Assembly (NCBI GenBank): GCA_944324265.1
Contig: CALUVS010000001.1
Location: forward strand, 1-64,000
DNA length: 64,000 nucleotides
Direction of reading: 5' to 3'
DNA from: an uncultured Traorella sp.
Lineage (GTDB): Bacteria; Bacillota_I; Bacilli_A; Erysipelotrichales; Erysipelotrichaceae
Shown: positions 19,836-58,700 of the stretch, piece after piece
Position numbering within the stretch: position 1 is the first letter of the stretch
Layout: every line of letters begins with the position of its first letter
Translations under genes and position numbers: made by a program
The notes under the pieces: model-generated
Seen by the model: only the letters and a program-made list of their open reading frames with translations
What the model was told of the DNA's origin: nothing
Database searches by the model: none

Positions 19836-20722
19836 TGCGCAGTGGTTTTGTTGCTATTGTCGGCCGTCCCAATGCAGGGAAAAGTACTTTGCTGAATGCA
19901 ATCATGAATCGCAAATTGGCCATTATTTCAAGTAAGCCGCAGACAACGCGCAATAATATCATGGGAATTTTGACAGAGGAAGATTCTCAGATGATCTTTA
20001 TTGATACACCGGGCATTCATAAACCGCATCATGCTTTGGGCAGAACTTTGAATAAATCAGCTTATGCCAGCCTTGCAGATGTAGATTTGATTTATTATAT
20101 GGTGGATGCATCGGTGCCGTTTGGCAGCGGGGAAGAATTTGTTCTGAATCAGATCAAAGATAAATCAAACAATATTATATTGCTGTTAAATAAAGTGGAT
20201 CTGATCAGCAAGGATAAACTGATGCAATTGATCCTGCAGTGGTCCAAAAGAGCAAATTTCATTGAAATATTTCCGATCAGTGCCACAGAAAAGATTAATG
20301 TGGACAAGCTTTTGGACATCAGCAGAACTTATCTGCCGGAAGGTCCGATGTATTTTGATGAATCAACGATCTGCGATCATGATGAAAACTTCTTGATCAG
20401 TGAATTGATCCGTGAAAAAATTATTTGGCGCACTCAGGAAGAAGTGCCGCATTCGGTTGCTGTGGTGATTGAAAATCGTGAAGATACAGAAACCAAGACA
20501 TATATTCAAGCCTTGATCATTGTAGAAAGAGCTTCTCAGAAAGGAATTTTGATTGGTTCACAAGGCAAGATGATTGCTTCGATCACGCAGGATGCGCGCA
20601 GAGATCTGCGCCATATTTTAGGACGCAGAGTAGAATTGGAATGCTATGTGCGTGTCGAAGAAAACTGGCGCAATAAAGAAAGTAAGATTCATCAGTTCGG
20701 TATAGGAGAAATGGATGAATGA
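19835..20722 (+). CDS. era: GTPase Era
   Basis: The 295-residue protein has a GTPase domain with GRPNAGKST (G1), the switch region KPQTTRNN, DTPG (G3) and NKVD (G4), followed by a C-terminal KH RNA-binding domain (GSQGKMIASI). Era binds the 3' end of 16S rRNA during 30S assembly. Its operon partner YbeY acts in the same process. Start ATG at 19835 overlaps the cdd stop codon. Confidence 0.96.
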   Translation: MRSGFVAIVGRPNAGKSTLLNAIMNRKLAIISSKPQTTRNNIMGILTEEDSQMIFIDTPGIHKPHHALGRTLNKSAYASLADVDLIYYMVDASVPFGSGEEFVLNQIKDKSNNIILLLNKVDLISKDKLMQLILQWSKRANFIEIFPISATEKINVDKLLDISRTYLPEGPMYFDESTICDHDENFLISELIREKIIWRTQEEVPHSVAVVIENREDTETKTYIQALIIVERASQKGILIGSQGKMIASITQDARRDLRHILGRRVELECYVRVEENWRNKESKIHQFGIGEMDE

Positions 20723-21449
20723 TATAGAAGGACTTGTGATTTCTTTCAGTGAGATCAATGAAGCAGATGCTTTGCTGCATGTACTGACTGCACAGGGCAA
20801 AGTGACATTGAAGGCAAAAGGAATCTTAAAAGTGAATTCAAAAAATGCCAGAGGATGTCAATTGTATACTCATTCCATGTTTCATTTGCTTCAAAGCAAT
20901 GCCAAGACAACTCATGTGATCAAAAGTGTCGATGTGATTCATTCGTATCGAATGGTTCGGGAAGATCTGCTGAAACAGACATTGGCCTGCTGCATGATGG
21001 AAGCCTTGGATAAGATCAATATCCGTGAAACAGAATTGGATTTTAATGAATGCTGTGCCTATTTGCAGGCTTTAGAAACAAGCAGGCATCCTTACTGCGT
21101 TTTCAGCTTATTTTTATGTATGATCCTGCGCTTAAGCGGAATTGCTTTATGGAGTGATTCTTGTGTCATATGCAATACAAAGCAGTCCATCTGTGCTGTT
21201 TCTTTGAAGGAAGGCGGGTTTATCTGCAAAGATTGTTTTAAGCCATCGGTGCATCGTCATTTTCCTGCAGAGAAACTGCGTCAGCTGCGCTATTTGACTC
21301 ATGCTGACTTGAAACAGCTGCCATTGCTGGAGTCTTATGGTCCATGGGAATATGATATCGTGGAAGTGCTGCTTGGAATGCTGGAATTACATGGTGAATT
21401 TAAAATGAATGGAGCTGCCTTTTTAGGACATTTGAATGTCTTGAATTGA
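20715..21449 (+). CDS. recO: DNA repair protein RecO
   Basis: This 244-residue protein starts with an OB fold (GLVISFSEINEADALLHVLT) and has a four-cysteine zinc site (CVICN ... CKDC, residues 152-177). RecO loads RecA on SSB-coated single-stranded DNA with RecR. It is the last gene of the ybeY operon, overlapping era by 8 nt. No terminator is evident before the glyS promoter. Confidence 0.93.
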   Translation: MNDIEGLVISFSEINEADALLHVLTAQGKVTLKAKGILKVNSKNARGCQLYTHSMFHLLQSNAKTTHVIKSVDVIHSYRMVREDLLKQTLACCMMEALDKINIRETELDFNECCAYLQALETSRHPYCVFSLFLCMILRLSGIALWSDSCVICNTKQSICAVSLKEGGFICKDCFKPSVHRHFPAEKLRQLRYLTHADLKQLPLLESYGPWEYDIVEVLLGMLELHGEFKMNGAAFLGHLNVLN

Positions 21450-43498: not shown

Positions 43499-44977
43499 AT
43501 GAATACAATTGAAGTCCTGAAAAACATAGCGCAGCGATGTGGGGGCGATATATACTTAGGCATCGTAGGACCTGTGCGGGTAGGTAAGAGTACCTTTATT
43601 AAAAAATTTATGGAACAGACAGTTTTGCCTTATGTCAGTGATGAGTTTGAAAAAGCGCGGATGATCGATGAACTGCCGCAATCCGGCGAAGGAAAGACGA
43701 TCATGACGACCGAGCCTAAATTTGTACCGAATAATGCGGCATTGATTGAATTTGATGATGGCTTTAAAGTGAATGTACGTCTGGTGGACTGTGTGGGATT
43801 TGTATTCGATCAAGCTCAGGGATTCAAAGATGAAAATGGATTGCGCATGGTACGCACTCCTTGGTTTGAACAAGCCATTCCTTTTGATGAAGCAGCTAAG
43901 ATCGGTACTCAGAAAGTCATCCAGGATCATTCTACAATCGGCATTGTTGTGACAAGTGACGGCAGTATTACTGATCTGCCAAGAGAAGCCTATGAACAGG
44001 CAGAGATGGAAGTGATTGAAGAATTGCAGTCTATCGGCAAACCTTTTATCGTCATCGTGAATTCCAAAAATCCGCAAGGTGTTCATTGTCAGAATATCGC
44101 CGAAAAGATGAAAGAAAGAGTAAATGTGCCTGTTTTATCTATGTCAGTTCAAAGCATGAGCCAAGAAGATATACTTTCCATCTTGAGAGAAGCCTTATAT
44201 GAATTTCCTGTCAGTGAAATTTCTATTCAATTGCCGACCTGGATTGCCATATTGCATGAAGATCATTGGCTGAAACGAAATATCAATGCTTCGATTCAAG
44301 CAGGAATGTCAGTCATAGAAAAACTTAGGGAAGTCGAAAATATTTTAGCTATTTTAAATGAGAATGAATGGATTGAAAGCTGTCATATTGCAAATATTGA
44401 TCCAGGAAATGGCAATGTCAATGTAGAGGTCAAAGCAATCAATGGCTTATATAATCAGATCTTAAAAGAAATTATCGGTGTTGAAGTAAAGGATAAAGCA
44501 GAATTATTGAATCTTATGCAGGAATTTTCTTTGGCTAAGAAGGAATTTGATGCAATTGCCAGTGCTTTGAAAATGGTCAAGCAAACCGGCTATGGCTTTG
44601 CCAGTGCTTCACTGAATGATATTCATTTATCCACACCTGAAGTTGTCAAGCAAGGAAATCGATATGGGGTAAAATTAAAAGCGATTGCACCAAGCATTCA
44701 TATGATCAAAGTCGATGTAGAAAGTGTGTTTGAACCAATTATCGGATCGAAGGAACAAAGTGAAGAATTGATTCGTTATTTATTGCGAGATGCCGAAACA
44801 AATAATCAGAGTATTTGGGATTCGGATATTTTTGGACGGAAGCTTTCTGATTTGATTCGGGATGGTTTGAATGTGAAATTATCGATGATTCCGGAAGCTG
44901 CAAGAATGCGTCTGCAGGATATTTTGACAAAACTTGTAAACAAAGGAAAAGGGAATGTCATAGCGATTGTTTTATAG
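43499..44977 (+). CDS. spoIVA: Stage IV sporulation protein A
   Basis: The 492-residue protein is a diagnostic spore-coat ATPase, equal in length to B. subtilis SpoIVA. The Walker A GPVRVGKST lies at residues 23-31, and the long C-terminal domain ends in GKGNVIAIVL. It polymerises on the outer forespore membrane to anchor the coat. AAGGAGGAAAG precedes ATG 43499. A possible sigma-E -10 box CATAGAGT sits at 43469-43476, without a good -35. Position between gpsA and hup matches Bacillus. Confidence 0.96.
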   Translation: MNTIEVLKNIAQRCGGDIYLGIVGPVRVGKSTFIKKFMEQTVLPYVSDEFEKARMIDELPQSGEGKTIMTTEPKFVPNNAALIEFDDGFKVNVRLVDCVGFVFDQAQGFKDENGLRMVRTPWFEQAIPFDEAAKIGTQKVIQDHSTIGIVVTSDGSITDLPREAYEQAEMEVIEELQSIGKPFIVIVNSKNPQGVHCQNIAEKMKERVNVPVLSMSVQSMSQEDILSILREALYEFPVSEISIQLPTWIAILHEDHWLKRNINASIQAGMSVIEKLREVENILAILNENEWIESCHIANIDPGNGNVNVEVKAINGLYNQILKEIIGVEVKDKAELLNLMQEFSLAKKEFDAIASALKMVKQTGYGFASASLNDIHLSTPEVVKQGNRYGVKLKAIAPSIHMIKVDVESVFEPIIGSKEQSEELIRYLLRDAETNNQSIWDSDIFGRKLSDLIRDGLNVKLSMIPEAARMRLQDILTKLVNKGKGNVIAIVL

Positions 44978-46108: not shown

Positions 46109-47578
46109 ATGAAAAAATACATTTTACCCTTTTGTTTTGTATTTTCTTTGTTTTATCTATTGAATCTGAATGTAAAAGCAGCTTCTACGAACAAGGCTTT
46201 GCTGCCTTATGAAGTGAACAGCATTACAGCCAATGAGAATGGTTTTGTGATTGAAGGATGGGCCATGATCTCCAATCTTCAGCACTTTCAAAATGCTTCA
46301 ACTCATAGTTATGAGCTTGTATTAAGTTCTTCTGATCAAACGATTCGCTATACATCACAGCCATCAGCCAATGATCAAACGGATACAATGCGTGTTTTCA
46401 ATAAACCGCGCTGTGCAAACAATGCCACTTATCAGGAAGGATCCGTATGCTATTACGATTATCAAAATGTCGGTTTTCGATTTCTTGTTCCTTATGAAGA
46501 TCTGACGGAAGGGAATTATACGGTCAGTTTGATTGTTCATGCCCACACAACACAGGTCAGCCAATCCACGACCTTATTTTATCCTACACATGTACCTGTC
46601 ATGCATGAAAAGGATGGTATGACATATAAAGCCAGAAGTGATCTGCAGGATACTTCTCTGCATGTTGTTTATGATGATGTCTTGGTACGTATTTCTCCGG
46701 ATAAATACTCAGAAGTAAGAACGTCGGATAATTATTGCGGTTCGATGTATGGCTATCGTGTTTATTTTGCTAAGAATACGACTTATACTCATGTATTTGA
46801 CCGCATCAGCAACGGCGATACAACGTATTACAAAGTCGGTACTCAAAAGGCGACTTTCTGCAGCGCCAATCAGAATCAGACCAAAGAGGGAAGCGACCAT
46901 TATTCCTGGATTCCCAGCAATTTTGTTGACTATGTCGGTGTCCCGCTGACTATTGAAGTAATTGCCAATACACCGCCAGTACTTACGGTGCATGAACATC
47001 CAACCATTCAGATAGGGCAGGCAATTGATCCTTTTGATTATGTCAGTGCCTTGGATAAAGAAGAAGGAGATCTTACTGATCAAATCATATTGCTGAAAGG
47101 CAAGATAGAACAAGAAGCAGGTGTATATGAATTCGTTTTTTATGTAGAAGACAGTCAAAAAGCCTATGACATAGAAAGCATGTTTGTGGAAGTGGTTAAA
47201 GAAAATACACCGCCGGATATATTTGCGGCAGATAAAGTAATTTATCAATATACAGAATTTGATTATTATGAAGATGTATCTGCCAGTGATTTTGAAGATG
47301 GTATTGTAGATATTCTTTGGTATGAAGGAGAAGTCAATGTTGAAGAATTAGGAATTTATTATGTCACCTATTACTGCATGGACTCAGAAGGTTTAATATC
47401 AAGCAAAACTATTTCTGTTATGGTCATACGAAATCCAAGAGAGAAGATACGCTATATTGATGCTGAACTTCCTTTCTATGAAGAACCTATTCCCAGAAAC
47501 TGGATCTATAAATATCCATATCTGTTTGAGCAATTAGAAAATCCGCGAATCTATGAAGAAATACATATTCGTTTATAA
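46109..47578 (+). CDS. Secreted protein with two Ig-like (DUF5011-type) repeats
   Basis: The 489-residue protein has a clear signal peptide (ILPFCFVFSLFYLLNL then VKA-AS, cleavage near residue 24). The N-terminal 280 residues have no known domain but contain paired Cys that may form disulfides. Two tandem repeats of about 75 residues follow, each with PP-V/D-I..., a central VSA(L/S)D-x-E(D/E)G and a closing YYV/FYV(E/M)DS(Q/E)G-like strand. No LPXTG or membrane anchor is seen, so it is released or held non-covalently. The ATG at 46109 has TAGGAGG upstream. Confidence 0.8.
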   Translation: MKKYILPFCFVFSLFYLLNLNVKAASTNKALLPYEVNSITANENGFVIEGWAMISNLQHFQNASTHSYELVLSSSDQTIRYTSQPSANDQTDTMRVFNKPRCANNATYQEGSVCYYDYQNVGFRFLVPYEDLTEGNYTVSLIVHAHTTQVSQSTTLFYPTHVPVMHEKDGMTYKARSDLQDTSLHVVYDDVLVRISPDKYSEVRTSDNYCGSMYGYRVYFAKNTTYTHVFDRISNGDTTYYKVGTQKATFCSANQNQTKEGSDHYSWIPSNFVDYVGVPLTIEVIANTPPVLTVHEHPTIQIGQAIDPFDYVSALDKEEGDLTDQIILLKGKIEQEAGVYEFVFYVEDSQKAYDIESMFVEVVKENTPPDIFAADKVIYQYTEFDYYEDVSASDFEDGIVDILWYEGEVNVEELGIYYVTYYCMDSEGLISSKTISVMVIRNPREKIRYIDAELPFYEEPIPRNWIYKYPYLFEQLENPRIYEEIHIRL

Positions 47579-54855: not shown

Positions 54856-55674
54856 TTAGCGATATGTACGTGCAGATTCATGATTTTTCATACGATTTTC
54901 CAAACGCATCTTATCAGAGATCATCGCAATAAATTCTGAATTGGTAGGCTTGGCTTTGCTGGCAGAGATAGTATAGCCGAAGATATCATCAATGGCATCA
55001 ATGTTTCCCCGATTCCAAGCGACTTCAATGGCATGACGGATGGCTCTTTCAACTCTTGAACTAGTTGTGGCATAGCGCCGGGCAATTTCAGGATATAATA
55101 CTTTAGTAATCTGACCCAAGAAATCAACATTCTCATAGGTTTCCAAGATTGCGGTTCTTAAATAGAGATATCCTTTGATATGTGCCGGTATCCCGATTTC
55201 ATGTAATAGATCAGTTATTTCTCTTTCTAATTCCAGCTTTAATATTTTATCTCTCTCGCTGATATCTAAATTAATGACAATTCCCTCATGATCATCCTCA
55301 TGTCCGCTCAAGGAGATCATTTTATTGATGATCTGTTTTACTTCAAAGGGCTTCATCAATAAATAAGAGATAGCATATTGCTGCAGATCTTTGATCATCG
55401 TATCGTTGATGATTGGTGTCGTACATAGGACATAACGAACGCTGATCCGGCATTCTTTTAATTCTTTTAATACTTGAAATCCATCTTTGATGGGCATGAT
55501 CAGATCAAGAATCAGAAAATCAACACTGCGGTTGCTGAGCTCTCTTAAGCACTGCTCCCCATTGCAGGCACTTCCGACAACTTCAAAATGTTCAGATTTT
55601 CTCAGTTCATCCTTGATTTTATTGCAGCCGTCACTATTATCATCTACTACGTAGACACTCATTTTTTTATTCAT
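54856..55674 (-). CDS. spo0A: Sporulation master regulator Spo0A
   Basis: The 272-residue response regulator has a receiver domain with the acidic pair Asp11-Asp12, phospho-acceptor Asp57 in LDLIMP and Lys108 in MKPF. The C-terminal Spo0A DNA-binding domain is recognisable from [30 protein letters not shown] and [13 protein letters not shown]. Phosphorylated Spo0A starts sporulation. AGGAGG precedes ATG 55674. It lies downstream of spoIVB as in all endospore formers. Confidence 0.97.
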
Positions 55675-55710
55675 TTGTATTTCCTCCTATCTTCATTATA
55701 AGCTATAAAT

Positions 55711-55718
55711 GTGTCGAG
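55711..55718. promoter_or_regulatory. Possible Spo0A box upstream of spo0A
   Basis: GTGTCGAG matches the Spo0A box TTGTCGAA at 6 of 8 positions, including the TGTCGA core. On the minus strand it lies just upstream of a TATAAT -10-like box for spo0A, so autoregulation is possible. Confidence 0.35.
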
Positions 55719-55794
55719 TAATGCCAAATGCTGTCTAATTTGCGATGTTAGTGCATAGTTTTGAACAATATGTGCGAAAAGTTGCTATGAATGA

Positions 55795-55831
55795 AGAAAA
55801 AAAGCGCCTTATTGTCGATAAAGGTCGCTTT
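55795..55831 (-). terminator. Intrinsic terminator of spoIVB
   Basis: On the minus strand AAAGCG/CGCTTT, with inner CCTT/AAGG pairing and a T tract. The 5' arm lies inside the last codons of spoIVB. Confidence 0.85.
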
Positions 55832-56798
55832 TGCTTTCTTCCAGCATCCATTCAATATAAATGCCGTATCCTTTTGCAGGATCATTTCCTGAAACATGGG
55901 TGACTGCACCGATGAGCTTATCATTCTGAACAATAGGTGAACCGCTCATTCCCTGTACGATTCCATTGGTCAAGGATAAACAATGAGGATCAATAATACG
56001 AAATTCAAATCCTTTGATATCTTTGGCAGACTGAGGATTGATATGAGTGATTTCAATCAAAACTTCATGAATTTCATCATTTTCAAGTACAGTATACATG
56101 ATGGCTTCCTTTATTTCAATTTCATGAGCTTCTGCCGTTTCGATAGTCGGCATTCCGGCAATTTGATCTGTTTTGCCGTAGATGCCGAAAGCATTGTTTT
56201 TTGTAATTGAACCAATCTGTGCTGAGAAATTGATGCGTGCTTGTTTTTCACCTATCTGATGTACACTGGCTTTTCGTATGCCGATGACCTGGCTTTTGAA
56301 TAAAGTGCCGCTGCCGACAGGTGCTAACTGCTGAGTTTCACTGTTTAAGACTTCATGTCCCAAAGAAGCAAAACTTTGCATCTGCGGATGAATGAATGTC
56401 AATGTACCGATTCCCAATATTTCATCTTTCACAAACAATCCGCTTCTGATCTGACCGTTTTGCTGACGAACTTCTAATTTTCTTTCTAATATTTCTTCAT
56501 TCCGATTGATCTTTAAGATAACTGTTTCATTGATATGATCCAAAAGAATGGAAGAAAAATCAGAAATTGTCGCAATCGGAATGTCATTGACTGCTTGAAT
56601 CAAATCGCCGGAGACAATATCTGAGGTGAAGGGATCATATTTCACACCATCCAGATTCACCTCATAAGTTCCTGTGACAAGTACGCCGTCAAATTGGATT
56701 TGAATACCGATGCTGTCTCCGCCCAATATGACTGTATCCGCCAAAACTGGCATAAGAAACAGCTGTAAAATAATCCAGAAAGAGATAAATCTTTTCAT
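55809..56798 (-). CDS. spoIVB: SpoIVB serine peptidase (S55)
   Basis: This 329-residue protein has an N-terminal signal anchor (FISFWIILQLFLMPVLA), a PDZ domain (SGDLIQAVNDIPIATISDF) and the S55 peptidase domain with SLGHEV (catalytic His region) and GMSGSPIVQ (catalytic Ser near residue 287). It is secreted from the forespore and triggers sigma-K activation by cleaving SpoIVFA. Start ATG 56798 follows GGGAGG and seven T. The start region is part of a combined terminator and sigma-G promoter element. Confidence 0.94.
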   Translation of the reverse strand: MKRFISFWIILQLFLMPVLADTVILGGDSIGIQIQFDGVLVTGTYEVNLDGVKYDPFTSDIVSGDLIQAVNDIPIATISDFSSILLDHINETVILKINRNEEILERKLEVRQQNGQIRSGLFVKDEILGIGTLTFIHPQMQSFASLGHEVLNSETQQLAPVGSGTLFKSQVIGIRKASVHQIGEKQARINFSAQIGSITKNNAFGIYGKTDQIAGMPTIETAEAHEIEIKEAIMYTVLENDEIHEVLIEITHINPQSAKDIKGFEFRIIDPHCLSLTNGIVQGMSGSPIVQNDKLIGAVTHVSGNDPAKGYGIYIEWMLEESKSDLYRQ

Positions 56799-56801
56799 AA
56801 A

Positions 56802-56831
56802 AAAACCTCCCACTGATAGTATGGAGGCTTT
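56802..56831 (-). terminator. recN terminator that contains the spoIVB ribosome binding site
   Basis: On the minus strand AAAGCCTCC pairs with GGAGGTTTT (one G-U), a 9-bp stem with a 12-nt loop and a T run ending at the spoIVB ATG. The 3' arm is the Shine-Dalgarno sequence GGGAGG. Read-through transcripts from recN would both tend to terminate and have the spoIVB start blocked. Confidence 0.75.
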
Positions 56832-56846
56832 TGCTGGTTTTATCTA
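56817..56846 (-). promoter_or_regulatory. Sigma-G-type promoter for spoIVB
   Basis: On the minus strand TAGATA (56841-56846), 17 nt and CATACTA (56817-56823). CATACTA is the exact sigma-G -10 consensus; the -35 matches TGMATA at 4 of 6. The -10 box lies in the loop of the recN terminator hairpin. Transcription would begin near 56810, at the start of the GGGAGG arm. Confidence 0.6.
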
Positions 56847-58502
56847 TCTATCCTGCTGGGCAATTTCATAAAGCTCTTTGGCAGAAGATAAAGCCGATTC
56901 ACTGCAGGAATTCGTGCTCATCAAAGCCATGGCCTGAATGCGCTGGGATTCATTGAGCGGATAGATCAGAGTTTCGGTAGAAGTATCATCTTGTTTCTTC
57001 TCAACCATGTAGTGTTTCATGGCACAGGCAGCCACCGGACTTAAATGTGTGATGGCAAATACTTGCTGCTTCTGTCCGATACAGCGCATCTTTTTGCCGA
57101 TAGCCAAAGCGACTTTTCCGGAAACACCTGTATCAATTTCATCAAAGATGACCGTTTCAATGTGAGTCAAGGCTGTAAATACGGTCTTTAAGCCCAGCAT
57201 CAATCGGGAGAGTTCCCCGCCGCTGGCCACACTGGACAAAGGACGTATAGGTTCGCCTGGATTCATAGAAATATAAAATTCTGCATGATCCAATCCTTTA
57301 CCTGAAGGCTTATCCTCTTTGATAAGCACTTCAAAGCGAGCATGCGGCAAATAAAGATCGGCACATTCTTTTTGAATCTGTGTCTGCAATTCTTTTGCTT
57401 TCTTTTGACGCACTTCTCTTAACTGCAAAGCTTGTTTTTCAAAAACTTGATATTTTTTCTGTACCTGCTTTTCCATGCGTTCTAATACTTCCTGACGATT
57501 TTCAATGGCATCAATACGCTTCTGCAATTCTTCTTTCTTTTCCAGTATCAAATCAATGGAATTGCCGTATTTTCTTTTTAATTTACTTAATTGAAAAAGA
57601 TATTCCTGTAATTCATTATAACGCTGCTCATCATATTCCAAATTGTTTTGAATGTGCTGAAGATCACTGCATTTTTCTTCTAATGTATAGTAACAATCCA
57701 TTATTTCAGAATGAATCGCAGCAATATTTTCAAATTCTAAGCAATTCGCTAATTCTTTTTGTGCAGTATACAGCAATTCCAATACCGCATCATTGCCATT
57801 TAAACAAGTAATGCTTGCCTGCATGGCACGATTGAGTTTTTCAAATGCATTCATTTTTTTTACTTCAGCTAAAGCATTTTCTTCTTCTTCTTTGGATAAA
57901 TGAGCATTTTCAATTTCATCTACCTGAAAATGCAGATATTCCAGATCATCTTCATTCAGCTCCCCTTCTTTGATTTGTTCATATTCTTTTAAGGCAGCAG
58001 CATATTCTTGATAGCTTTCATTGACCTTTGAGAGCAGATCCGGCTCATGAATAAATTGATCCAAAAGCGTAATATGATAACGGCTGTTTAATAGATATTG
58101 AGTATCATGCTGAGAATGAATGTCGATTACTTCATTCATCATTTCTCTTAAAACAGATACAGAAACAGAACGCTGATTGATACGGGCAACACTTTTCCCA
58201 TCACTGGTCAATGTGCGGGTAATTGTCACAGTATCATCCTCACAATCAATGCCCATTTCTTCACATCGTGCAAAAAAAGGATGGTGCTTATCTAATTCAA
58301 ATATTCCTTCAATGACAGCTTTATCTTTTCCTTGTTTGATCAGCGAAGGTTTGGCACGTTCGCCGCATAAAAGTGAAATAGCATCGATCAATAAGCTTTT
58401 CCCTGCTCCTGTTTCACCCGTAAAGACTGAAAAGCAGGAATCAAAATCCAGATGCAATTCTTCTATTAACACAAAATCTTTGACATAGATTTCTCTAAAC
58501 AT
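56844..58502 (-). CDS. recN: DNA repair ATPase RecN
   Basis: The 552-residue SMC-like protein has Walker A GETGAGKSLLID near residues 32-43, two long coiled-coil arms around a hinge, and the ABC signature SSVASGGELSRLMLG plus Walker B TVIFDEIDTG. It acts early at double-strand breaks. ATG 58502 is preferred (GAGGAGG at 6 nt) to ATG 58508, which abuts that site. Relatives have ahrC directly upstream; here a divergent HAD gene is found. Confidence 0.95.
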   Translation of the reverse strand: MFREIYVKDFVLIEELHLDFDSCFSVFTGETGAGKSLLIDAISLLCGERAKPSLIKQGKDKAVIEGIFELDKHHPFFARCEEMGIDCEDDTVTITRTLTSDGKSVARINQRSVSVSVLREMMNEVIDIHSQHDTQYLLNSRYHITLLDQFIHEPDLLSKVNESYQEYAAALKEYEQIKEGELNEDDLEYLHFQVDEIENAHLSKEEEENALAEVKKMNAFEKLNRAMQASITCLNGNDAVLELLYTAQKELANCLEFENIAAIHSEIMDCYYTLEEKCSDLQHIQNNLEYDEQRYNELQEYLFQLSKLKRKYGNSIDLILEKKEELQKRIDAIENRQEVLERMEKQVQKKYQVFEKQALQLREVRQKKAKELQTQIQKECADLYLPHARFEVLIKEDKPSGKGLDHAEFYISMNPGEPIRPLSSVASGGELSRLMLGLKTVFTALTHIETVIFDEIDTGVSGKVALAIGKKMRCIGQKQQVFAITHLSPVAACAMKHYMVEKKQDDTSTETLIYPLNESQRIQAMALMSTNSCSESALSSAKELYEIAQQDR

Positions 58503-58671
58503 ATGCATCCTCCTCGTATCTTCTATATTTTATCATTTTTTTGGACGATTCACATTGTTAAATCATCAATTCACAAAAAAAGTATTAAAAAAACTGATTT
58601 GAATGATTGCATTTATTGCTTGTTCTGTTAAGAAAATAAATAATCTGAAGTGATGTTTAAGTTTAATTTTC

Positions 58672-58700
58672 TTGAATGCTATCATTGAAAAAGATACAAT
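58672..58700 (+). promoter_or_regulatory. Promoter for the HAD phosphatase gene
   Basis: TTGAAT (58672-58677), 17 nt and TACAAT (58695-58700). The remaining part of the 220-nt gap to recN is AT-rich and shows no other feature beyond the recN ribosome binding site. Confidence 0.7.

Follow-up and report, generated by a model that had tools for sequence, protein, structure and literature searches.

A sigma-G-type promoter embedded in a predicted ribosome-binding-site-masking hairpin between recN and spoIVB recurs with unrelated sequences in the Erysipelotrichales

Results

Organization of the recN-spoIVB junction

The minus strand of the window, meaning the whole 64,000-nucleotide stretch analysed, carries recN, spoIVB and spo0A in that order, as defined by open reading frames and NCBIfam models; the features described at this junction all lie on that strand. 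recN (56844-58502; TIGR00634, E 2e-145) is the proposed source of run-through RNA, spoIVB (55809-56798) encodes the SpoIVB peptidase and matched TIGR02860 with an E-value of 5.7e-82, slightly under the curated cut-off, and spo0A (54856-55674) lies downstream of spoIVB. The 45-bp gap between recN and spoIVB reads, 5′ to 3′, AGATA, a 17-nt spacer with AAAAGCCTC at its end, CATACTA, TCAGT, GGGAGG, T7 and ATG. GGGAGG (56806-56811) is the Shine-Dalgarno sequence (SD) of spoIVB, and the T7 tract (56799-56805), which is at the same time the stem base, the terminator U-tract and the spacer between SD and start, is directly followed by the start codon ATG (56796-56798), assigned from sequence, open reading frame and NCBIfam model.

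On folding, GGGAGG fell within the 3′ arm of a hairpin of 14 bp that leads into the U-tract, in line with what an earlier note on this DNA had claimed. The lower stem consists of 10 pairs between AAAAGCCUCC (56832-56823) and GGAGGUUUUU (56810-56801), and above it follow a bulged A56822 and four pairs between UACU (56821-56818) and AGUG (56814-56811) enclosing the loop AUC (z = −2.55 for the folded 91-nt piece). At the DNA level the anti-SD 5′ arm is AAAAGCCTCC (56823-56832), situated within the promoter spacer, and the 3′ arm is GGAGGTTTTT (56801-56810), which holds the SD core; besides the fold, the former is backed by co-adaptation in arm swaps and the latter by opening energies, both given below. 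The apical stem-loop TACT-ATC-AGTG (56811-56821) is built from the −10 and start-site region.

The −10 CATACTA (56817-56823) is an exact sigma-G match, again in agreement with the earlier note, which had however placed it in the loop: C56823 belongs to the lower stem, A56822 is the bulge, TACT forms part of the upper stem, and of the seven letters just the final A reaches the three-nucleotide loop. The sigma-G-like −35 AGATA (56841-56845; TAGATA with 56846) overlaps the recN stop codon (56846-56844), and the arrangement AGATA-17-CATACTA constitutes a near-perfect sigma-G promoter, with a CATACTA-like −10 and a GNATR-like −35 at 17-18 nt. The genome encodes a sigma-G homologue, and the predicted promoter may also be read by sigma-F. 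Promoter geometry predicts the transcription start at 56810-56811, 6-7 nt past the −10 and downstream of the 5′ arm, in accordance with the previously proposed start near 56810. The predicted sigma-G RNA would start (G)GGAGGUUUUUUUAUG and have a leader of 12-13 nt from which the entire 5′ arm is missing.

The element also has the hallmarks of an intrinsic terminator (56832-56799), namely a GC stem, A/U flanks and a U7 tract directly after the stem. It was not listed by a simple promoter and terminator scan of the window, probably because of the bulge. An Rfam search of 55600-58700 with E-values up to 1 gave no match and hence no known leader family, riboswitch or thermometer.

Predicted masking of the spoIVB start region

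Masking was assessed by keeping the SD and everything downstream fixed and dinucleotide-shuffling the upstream part, and a junction was called masked when its opening cost had p≤0.05. Opening the spoIVB SD and start region was computed to cost 17.2 kcal/mol in run-through RNA, 8.1 ± 2.2 kcal/mol with shuffled upstream sequence and 3.3 kcal/mol in the predicted sigma-G RNA, energies that leave aside co-transcriptional folding and ribosomes on recN; the expectation that GGGAGG is left free in a sigma-G transcript is thereby borne out computationally.

That sigma-G spacers or AT-rich leaders simply happen to be complementary to an SD is extremely unlikely in our judgement. Short anti-SD strings are common, and the control on window genes gave 4 of 36 masked (about 11% at p≤0.05), but this reading is contradicted by the covariation and arm-swap tests and by the spoVAC genes that possess a same-spaced sigma-G-type promoter without an adjacent sigF, only 6 of 41 of which are masked. 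The pattern CCTCC-N3-25-GGAGG has 10 sites in the 2.2-Mb genome, compared with 7 for the reversed control, and CATACTA-N2-14-GGAGG has two, before spoIVB and spoVAC, both with the same architecture. A strict pattern that accepted any CATNNTA matched 44 sites in the genome, about as many as its reversed control (42), so short consensus matches alone reveal no further cases. Four genes of the window were more closed at SD and start than their shuffled versions: 43499-44977, 46109-47578 and 20715-21449 on the plus strand, and spo0A (54856-55674) on the minus strand.

spoIVB junctions in the Erysipelotrichales

At the family level spoIVB was recovered from 37 genomes, with four of the genus's five genomes among them, and at the level of the order from 69; junctions were taken with strand correction. 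Masking was present at 25 of 29 recN-adjacent junctions in family f1, 29 of 31 in the sister family f2, 3 of 9 f1 junctions not beside recN and 1 of 38 in Clostridia, raw counts that overstate independence because the species are related. Counted by genus, 24 of the 29 with a close upstream gene were masked; the five unmasked genera include g20, g62 and g69, which have a separate terminator, and g44, which is borderline. In the Erysipelotrichales masking amounted to 56/63 where the co-directional upstream gene was less than 80 nt away and to 1/7 at 80 nt or more. The junctions thus show co-direction and proximity of the upstream gene, from which RNA would run into spoIVB. A specific need for recN was considered and rejected, since masking is still present where the upstream gene is zupT-like (L017) or degV (L025), 75 and 66 nt away. 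Beyond the order, masking was seen in 1 of 38 Clostridia and 1 of 34 junctions of other orders; these had long leaders or separate terminators and showed no excess of masking.

NANA(C/A)TA is found at nearly all Erysipelotrichales spoIVB junctions, and in nearly all f1 cases the sigma-G-like −10 stays 5-10 nt ahead of the SD core; the promoter of L003 and L004, for instance, is GAATA-18-CATACTA. With both the −10 and a masking stem in the 24 of 29 genera, the conservation whose absence in relatives had been named beforehand as fatal to the proposal is present. In family f1 the median opening cost falls from 12.8 kcal/mol in run-through RNA to 3.5 kcal/mol in sigma-G RNA, and all 28 of 28 masked cases fall by more than 3 kcal/mol. 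Exchanging the upstream parts for those of other genera lowered the median from 15.2 (native) to 8.0 kcal/mol (Wilcoxon p 6e-9), which indicates a match between each arm and the SD region it belongs to.

The stems themselves are unlike between genera: CCTCCCAT/GTGGGAGG in L003, CCTCCTATA/TATAGGAGG in L005, CAGCCTCC/GGGAGGCTG in L002, GCGCATCATCT/AGGTGATGCGT in L018, AAGTAT..TCTGA/TCAGGA..ATACTT in L008 and, with the start codon inside, ACGCATGAT/ATCATGCGT in L019. The compensating changes that the earlier note proposed to look for at the junctions of relatives are seen as arms that differ yet are co-adapted between genera, and as strong covariation in f2. An inverted repeat overlapping the −35/−10 spacer and +1 might also be an operator at the DNA level, bound by a repressor or an activator of spoIVB transcription, a reading made scarcely credible by arm sequences that are wholly different between genera and by two outer pairs in f2 that are mostly G-U and would not be kept by a DNA palindrome.

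Two further arrangements were observed. In one the −10 itself forms the 5′ arm and the SD lies in the loop (L009:1373-1452, CATACTAACA/TGTTAGTATG; L213 and L215, TACATACT/AGTATGTA and AACCATAC/GTATGGTT). The other is a perfect 12-bp spoIVB mask in unclassified Bacilli MAGs (L032:1930-2009 and L033:1930-2009; AATAAAAACCTC/GAGGTTTTTATT in L032).

Covariation in the sister family f2

Thirty f2 sequences have in common an outer stem of 12 bp, AGCATAnAtgCC/GGtgTnTATGCT; its 5′ arm occupies the spacer of the promoter GTATA/GAATA-17-CAAA(C/A)TA, and its 3′ arm lies over the start region and some of the SD. In the outer stem alone 97.7% of cells were paired, and in the outer and inner stems together 96.2%, with double-sided changes in 52 cells as against 18.6 in shuffled alignments and a covariation of 0.312 versus 0.135 shuffled and <0.07 when slid. 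Two of the 12 outer pairs are mostly G-U (UG 15 and GU 21 of 29), and such frequent G-U pairs point to RNA rather than a DNA palindrome. The weakest point is that in some f2 genera (g61, g71, g79 and others) little difference was computed between run-through and sigma-G RNA, so the case for masking in them is carried by covariation.

Between the −10 and the SD of f2 lies an inner hairpin, TGTAnnn/nnnTACA, with compensating changes (L114-L126, L133-L151, e.g. L149:1205-1284), which would remain at the extreme 5′ end of the sigma-G RNA. Hairpins at ribosome-binding sites often act as switches, and the masking hairpin might likewise be a thermometer, ligand sensor or RNase cleavage site that opens in run-through RNA, which the conservation of the f2 inner hairpin and its retention in sigma-G RNA would fit. 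We rate such a conditional switch as highly unlikely, given that there was neither an Rfam match nor a sequence motif conserved between genera and that a promoter between the arms already provides release.

Recurrence at spoVAC and sigG

In the same genome the sigF-spoVAC junction (L153:1480-1570; contig C26 near 19600) has a fused hairpin of terminator, sigma-G −10 and SD, with the stem ACCTTCTGA/TCAGGAGGT, CATACTA between the arms and a T7-ATG end. Relatives with spoVAC next to sigF have the stems CTCCTTGTC/GACAAGGAG (L193) and AATCCTCC/GGAGGATT (L194). Masking was found for 6 of 7 sigF-adjacent spoVAC genes versus 6 of 41 others, most of which keep CATACTA or a related −10 in the same place, and an explanation of masking by mere sigma-G spacer composition is ruled out by the latter count.

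The design recurs, more weakly, at the sigE-sigG junction, where in genus g1 all three cases (L249, L250, L251) were masked, in run-through RNA only, with the −10-like GGGAAAAAT between the arms. The sigG leaders of L226 and L230 carry instead a short hairpin at the ribosome-binding site past the promoter, CTCCTAG tgtg CTAGGAG, like the in-leader sigG hairpin of B. subtilis.

Terminator or mask

At close spoIVB and spoVAC junctions a mask only was found 62 times, a mask with a separate terminator three times, a terminator only 15 times, and neither a mask nor a clear terminator five times (Fisher p 6e-10 for terminator versus mask, computed on raw counts with shared descent). The element could in principle be merely a compact recN terminator with a 3′ arm that doubles by chance as the spoIVB SD, transcription stop being selected and masking a by-product. 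This fits the stem and T7 tract in the window, the T7 tract being kept or nearly so in the g1 relatives, g41 and the four sigF-linked spoVAC junctions of G000, G024, G058 and G091, and it fits the usual lack of a mask where a separate terminator is present. We nevertheless hold it to be unlikely. In most genera with a mask the stem lacks a following U-tract, which holds for all of the masked f2 and for the majority of f1 genera with a conserved stem, and the f2 structure for that reason cannot be an ordinary terminator; the start codon itself lies in the arm in L009, L019 and f2; and nothing about a terminator requires that its 5′ arm precede the sigma-G start and its 3′ arm coincide with the SD. 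It had been proposed earlier that a vegetative transcript would fold and terminate or be masked. Masking of SD or start stands as the feature common to the lineages, since the U-tract, and with it the terminator part of that proposal, is present in some of them only (g1, g41 and the four sigF-linked spoVAC junctions).

Discussion

Sequence and computation here document the anatomy of the hairpin, the conservation of its promoter, non-random masking, co-adaptation of the arms, dependence on a close upstream gene and a trade-off with terminators. The reading that we regard as probable, on the basis of sequence and modelled folds, is that a promoter-embedded hairpin masking the ribosome-binding site shields spoIVB, a forespore gene, against run-through from recN. 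Run-through RNA from recN would carry both arms and fold, closing the spoIVB SD and in some genera the start codon, and in the present genus it would also meet a U-tract at which it could terminate in part. With the 5′ arm placed in the −35/−10 spacer, RNA polymerase with sigma-G would start between the two arms and give a leader without the 5′ arm, in which the SD would be free and translation could begin. SpoIVB would in this way be made from the forespore (sigma-G) promoter only, with a presumed loss of translation from run-through RNA and an effect on timing.

Somewhat less firmly, but still as the likelier outcome, we propose that Erysipelotrichales forespore genes situated right behind an earlier-expressed gene have either a separate terminator or a ribosome-binding-site mask whose arm lies in the promoter spacer, and that masks of this kind evolved or were re-invented repeatedly, with unrelated sequences, at spoIVB, spoVAC and sigG, being merged in some lineages with the upstream terminator. 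If true, a cell-type-specific sigma factor decides both transcription and the readability of the RNA, as the mask is removed by where transcription begins. This would then explain how compact gut spore-formers avoid synthesis of a forespore protease or of SpoVA proteins from recN or sigF run-through ahead of time or in the wrong cell, and it would give a sequence signature for genes that need silence in run-through RNA.

In B. subtilis, SpoIVB starts the sigma-K activation pathway and its gene is under sigma-F and sigma-G control (PMC12251134). The genome studied here encodes a sigma-K homologue whose N-terminus resembles a pro-sequence; a profile search for BofA gave no match in it, and the same model was also blank in the B. 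subtilis control genome.

Comparison with known systems

A literature search turned up no previous description of a hairpin of this type at spoIVB. The nearest likeness is to phage T4, in which early transcripts of gene e (lysozyme), soc and I-TevI hide the ribosome-binding site and the 5′ side of the hairpin contains a late promoter (PMC3014915, PMC2988022). As described in these accounts, a long upstream transcript folds over SD and start, which here is predicted from folds and opening energies, and a later-stage promoter with its −10-type element in the hairpin starts between the arms and gives translated RNA, both start and translation being predictions in the present case. The T4 examples concern early and late phage timing, whereas here a cellular sporulation gene is involved, with unrelated stems in many genera, a trade-off with separate terminators and a fusion to a U-tract, which the cited accounts do not describe for T4.

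Ordinary intrinsic terminators share with the window element the GC stem with A/U flanks and the U7 tract; they differ from it in that its stem is bulged, its 3′ arm is the SD, the start codon comes right after the U-tract, and this tract is lost in most relatives that keep the mask.

Within the same regulon, a big hairpin has been proposed for B. subtilis sigG (spoIIIG) that blocks translation of read-through RNA from PspoIIG and cannot form in RNA from PsigG (Masuda 1988 and Sun 1991, as cited in PMC5942855). According to that summary the logic is the same, with a forespore gene directly behind an earlier gene and the promoter between the arms, and the g1 sigG itself also fits this scheme. 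The B. subtilis case is a stem of 20+ bp proposed for one gene, in contrast to the shorter stems at spoIVB and spoVAC compared here across 29 genera, with arms inside the promoter spacer and sometimes fused to a terminator. The logic is accordingly already known from T4 and, as a proposal, from B. subtilis sigG, and the spoIVB-type design recurs with different letters at another spore gene and across two families of bacteria; what is new are the genes, the breadth, the terminator fusion and the terminator-or-mask rule. If true, a mechanism established in T4 and put forward for a single B. subtilis gene becomes a recurrent rule with directly testable predictions.
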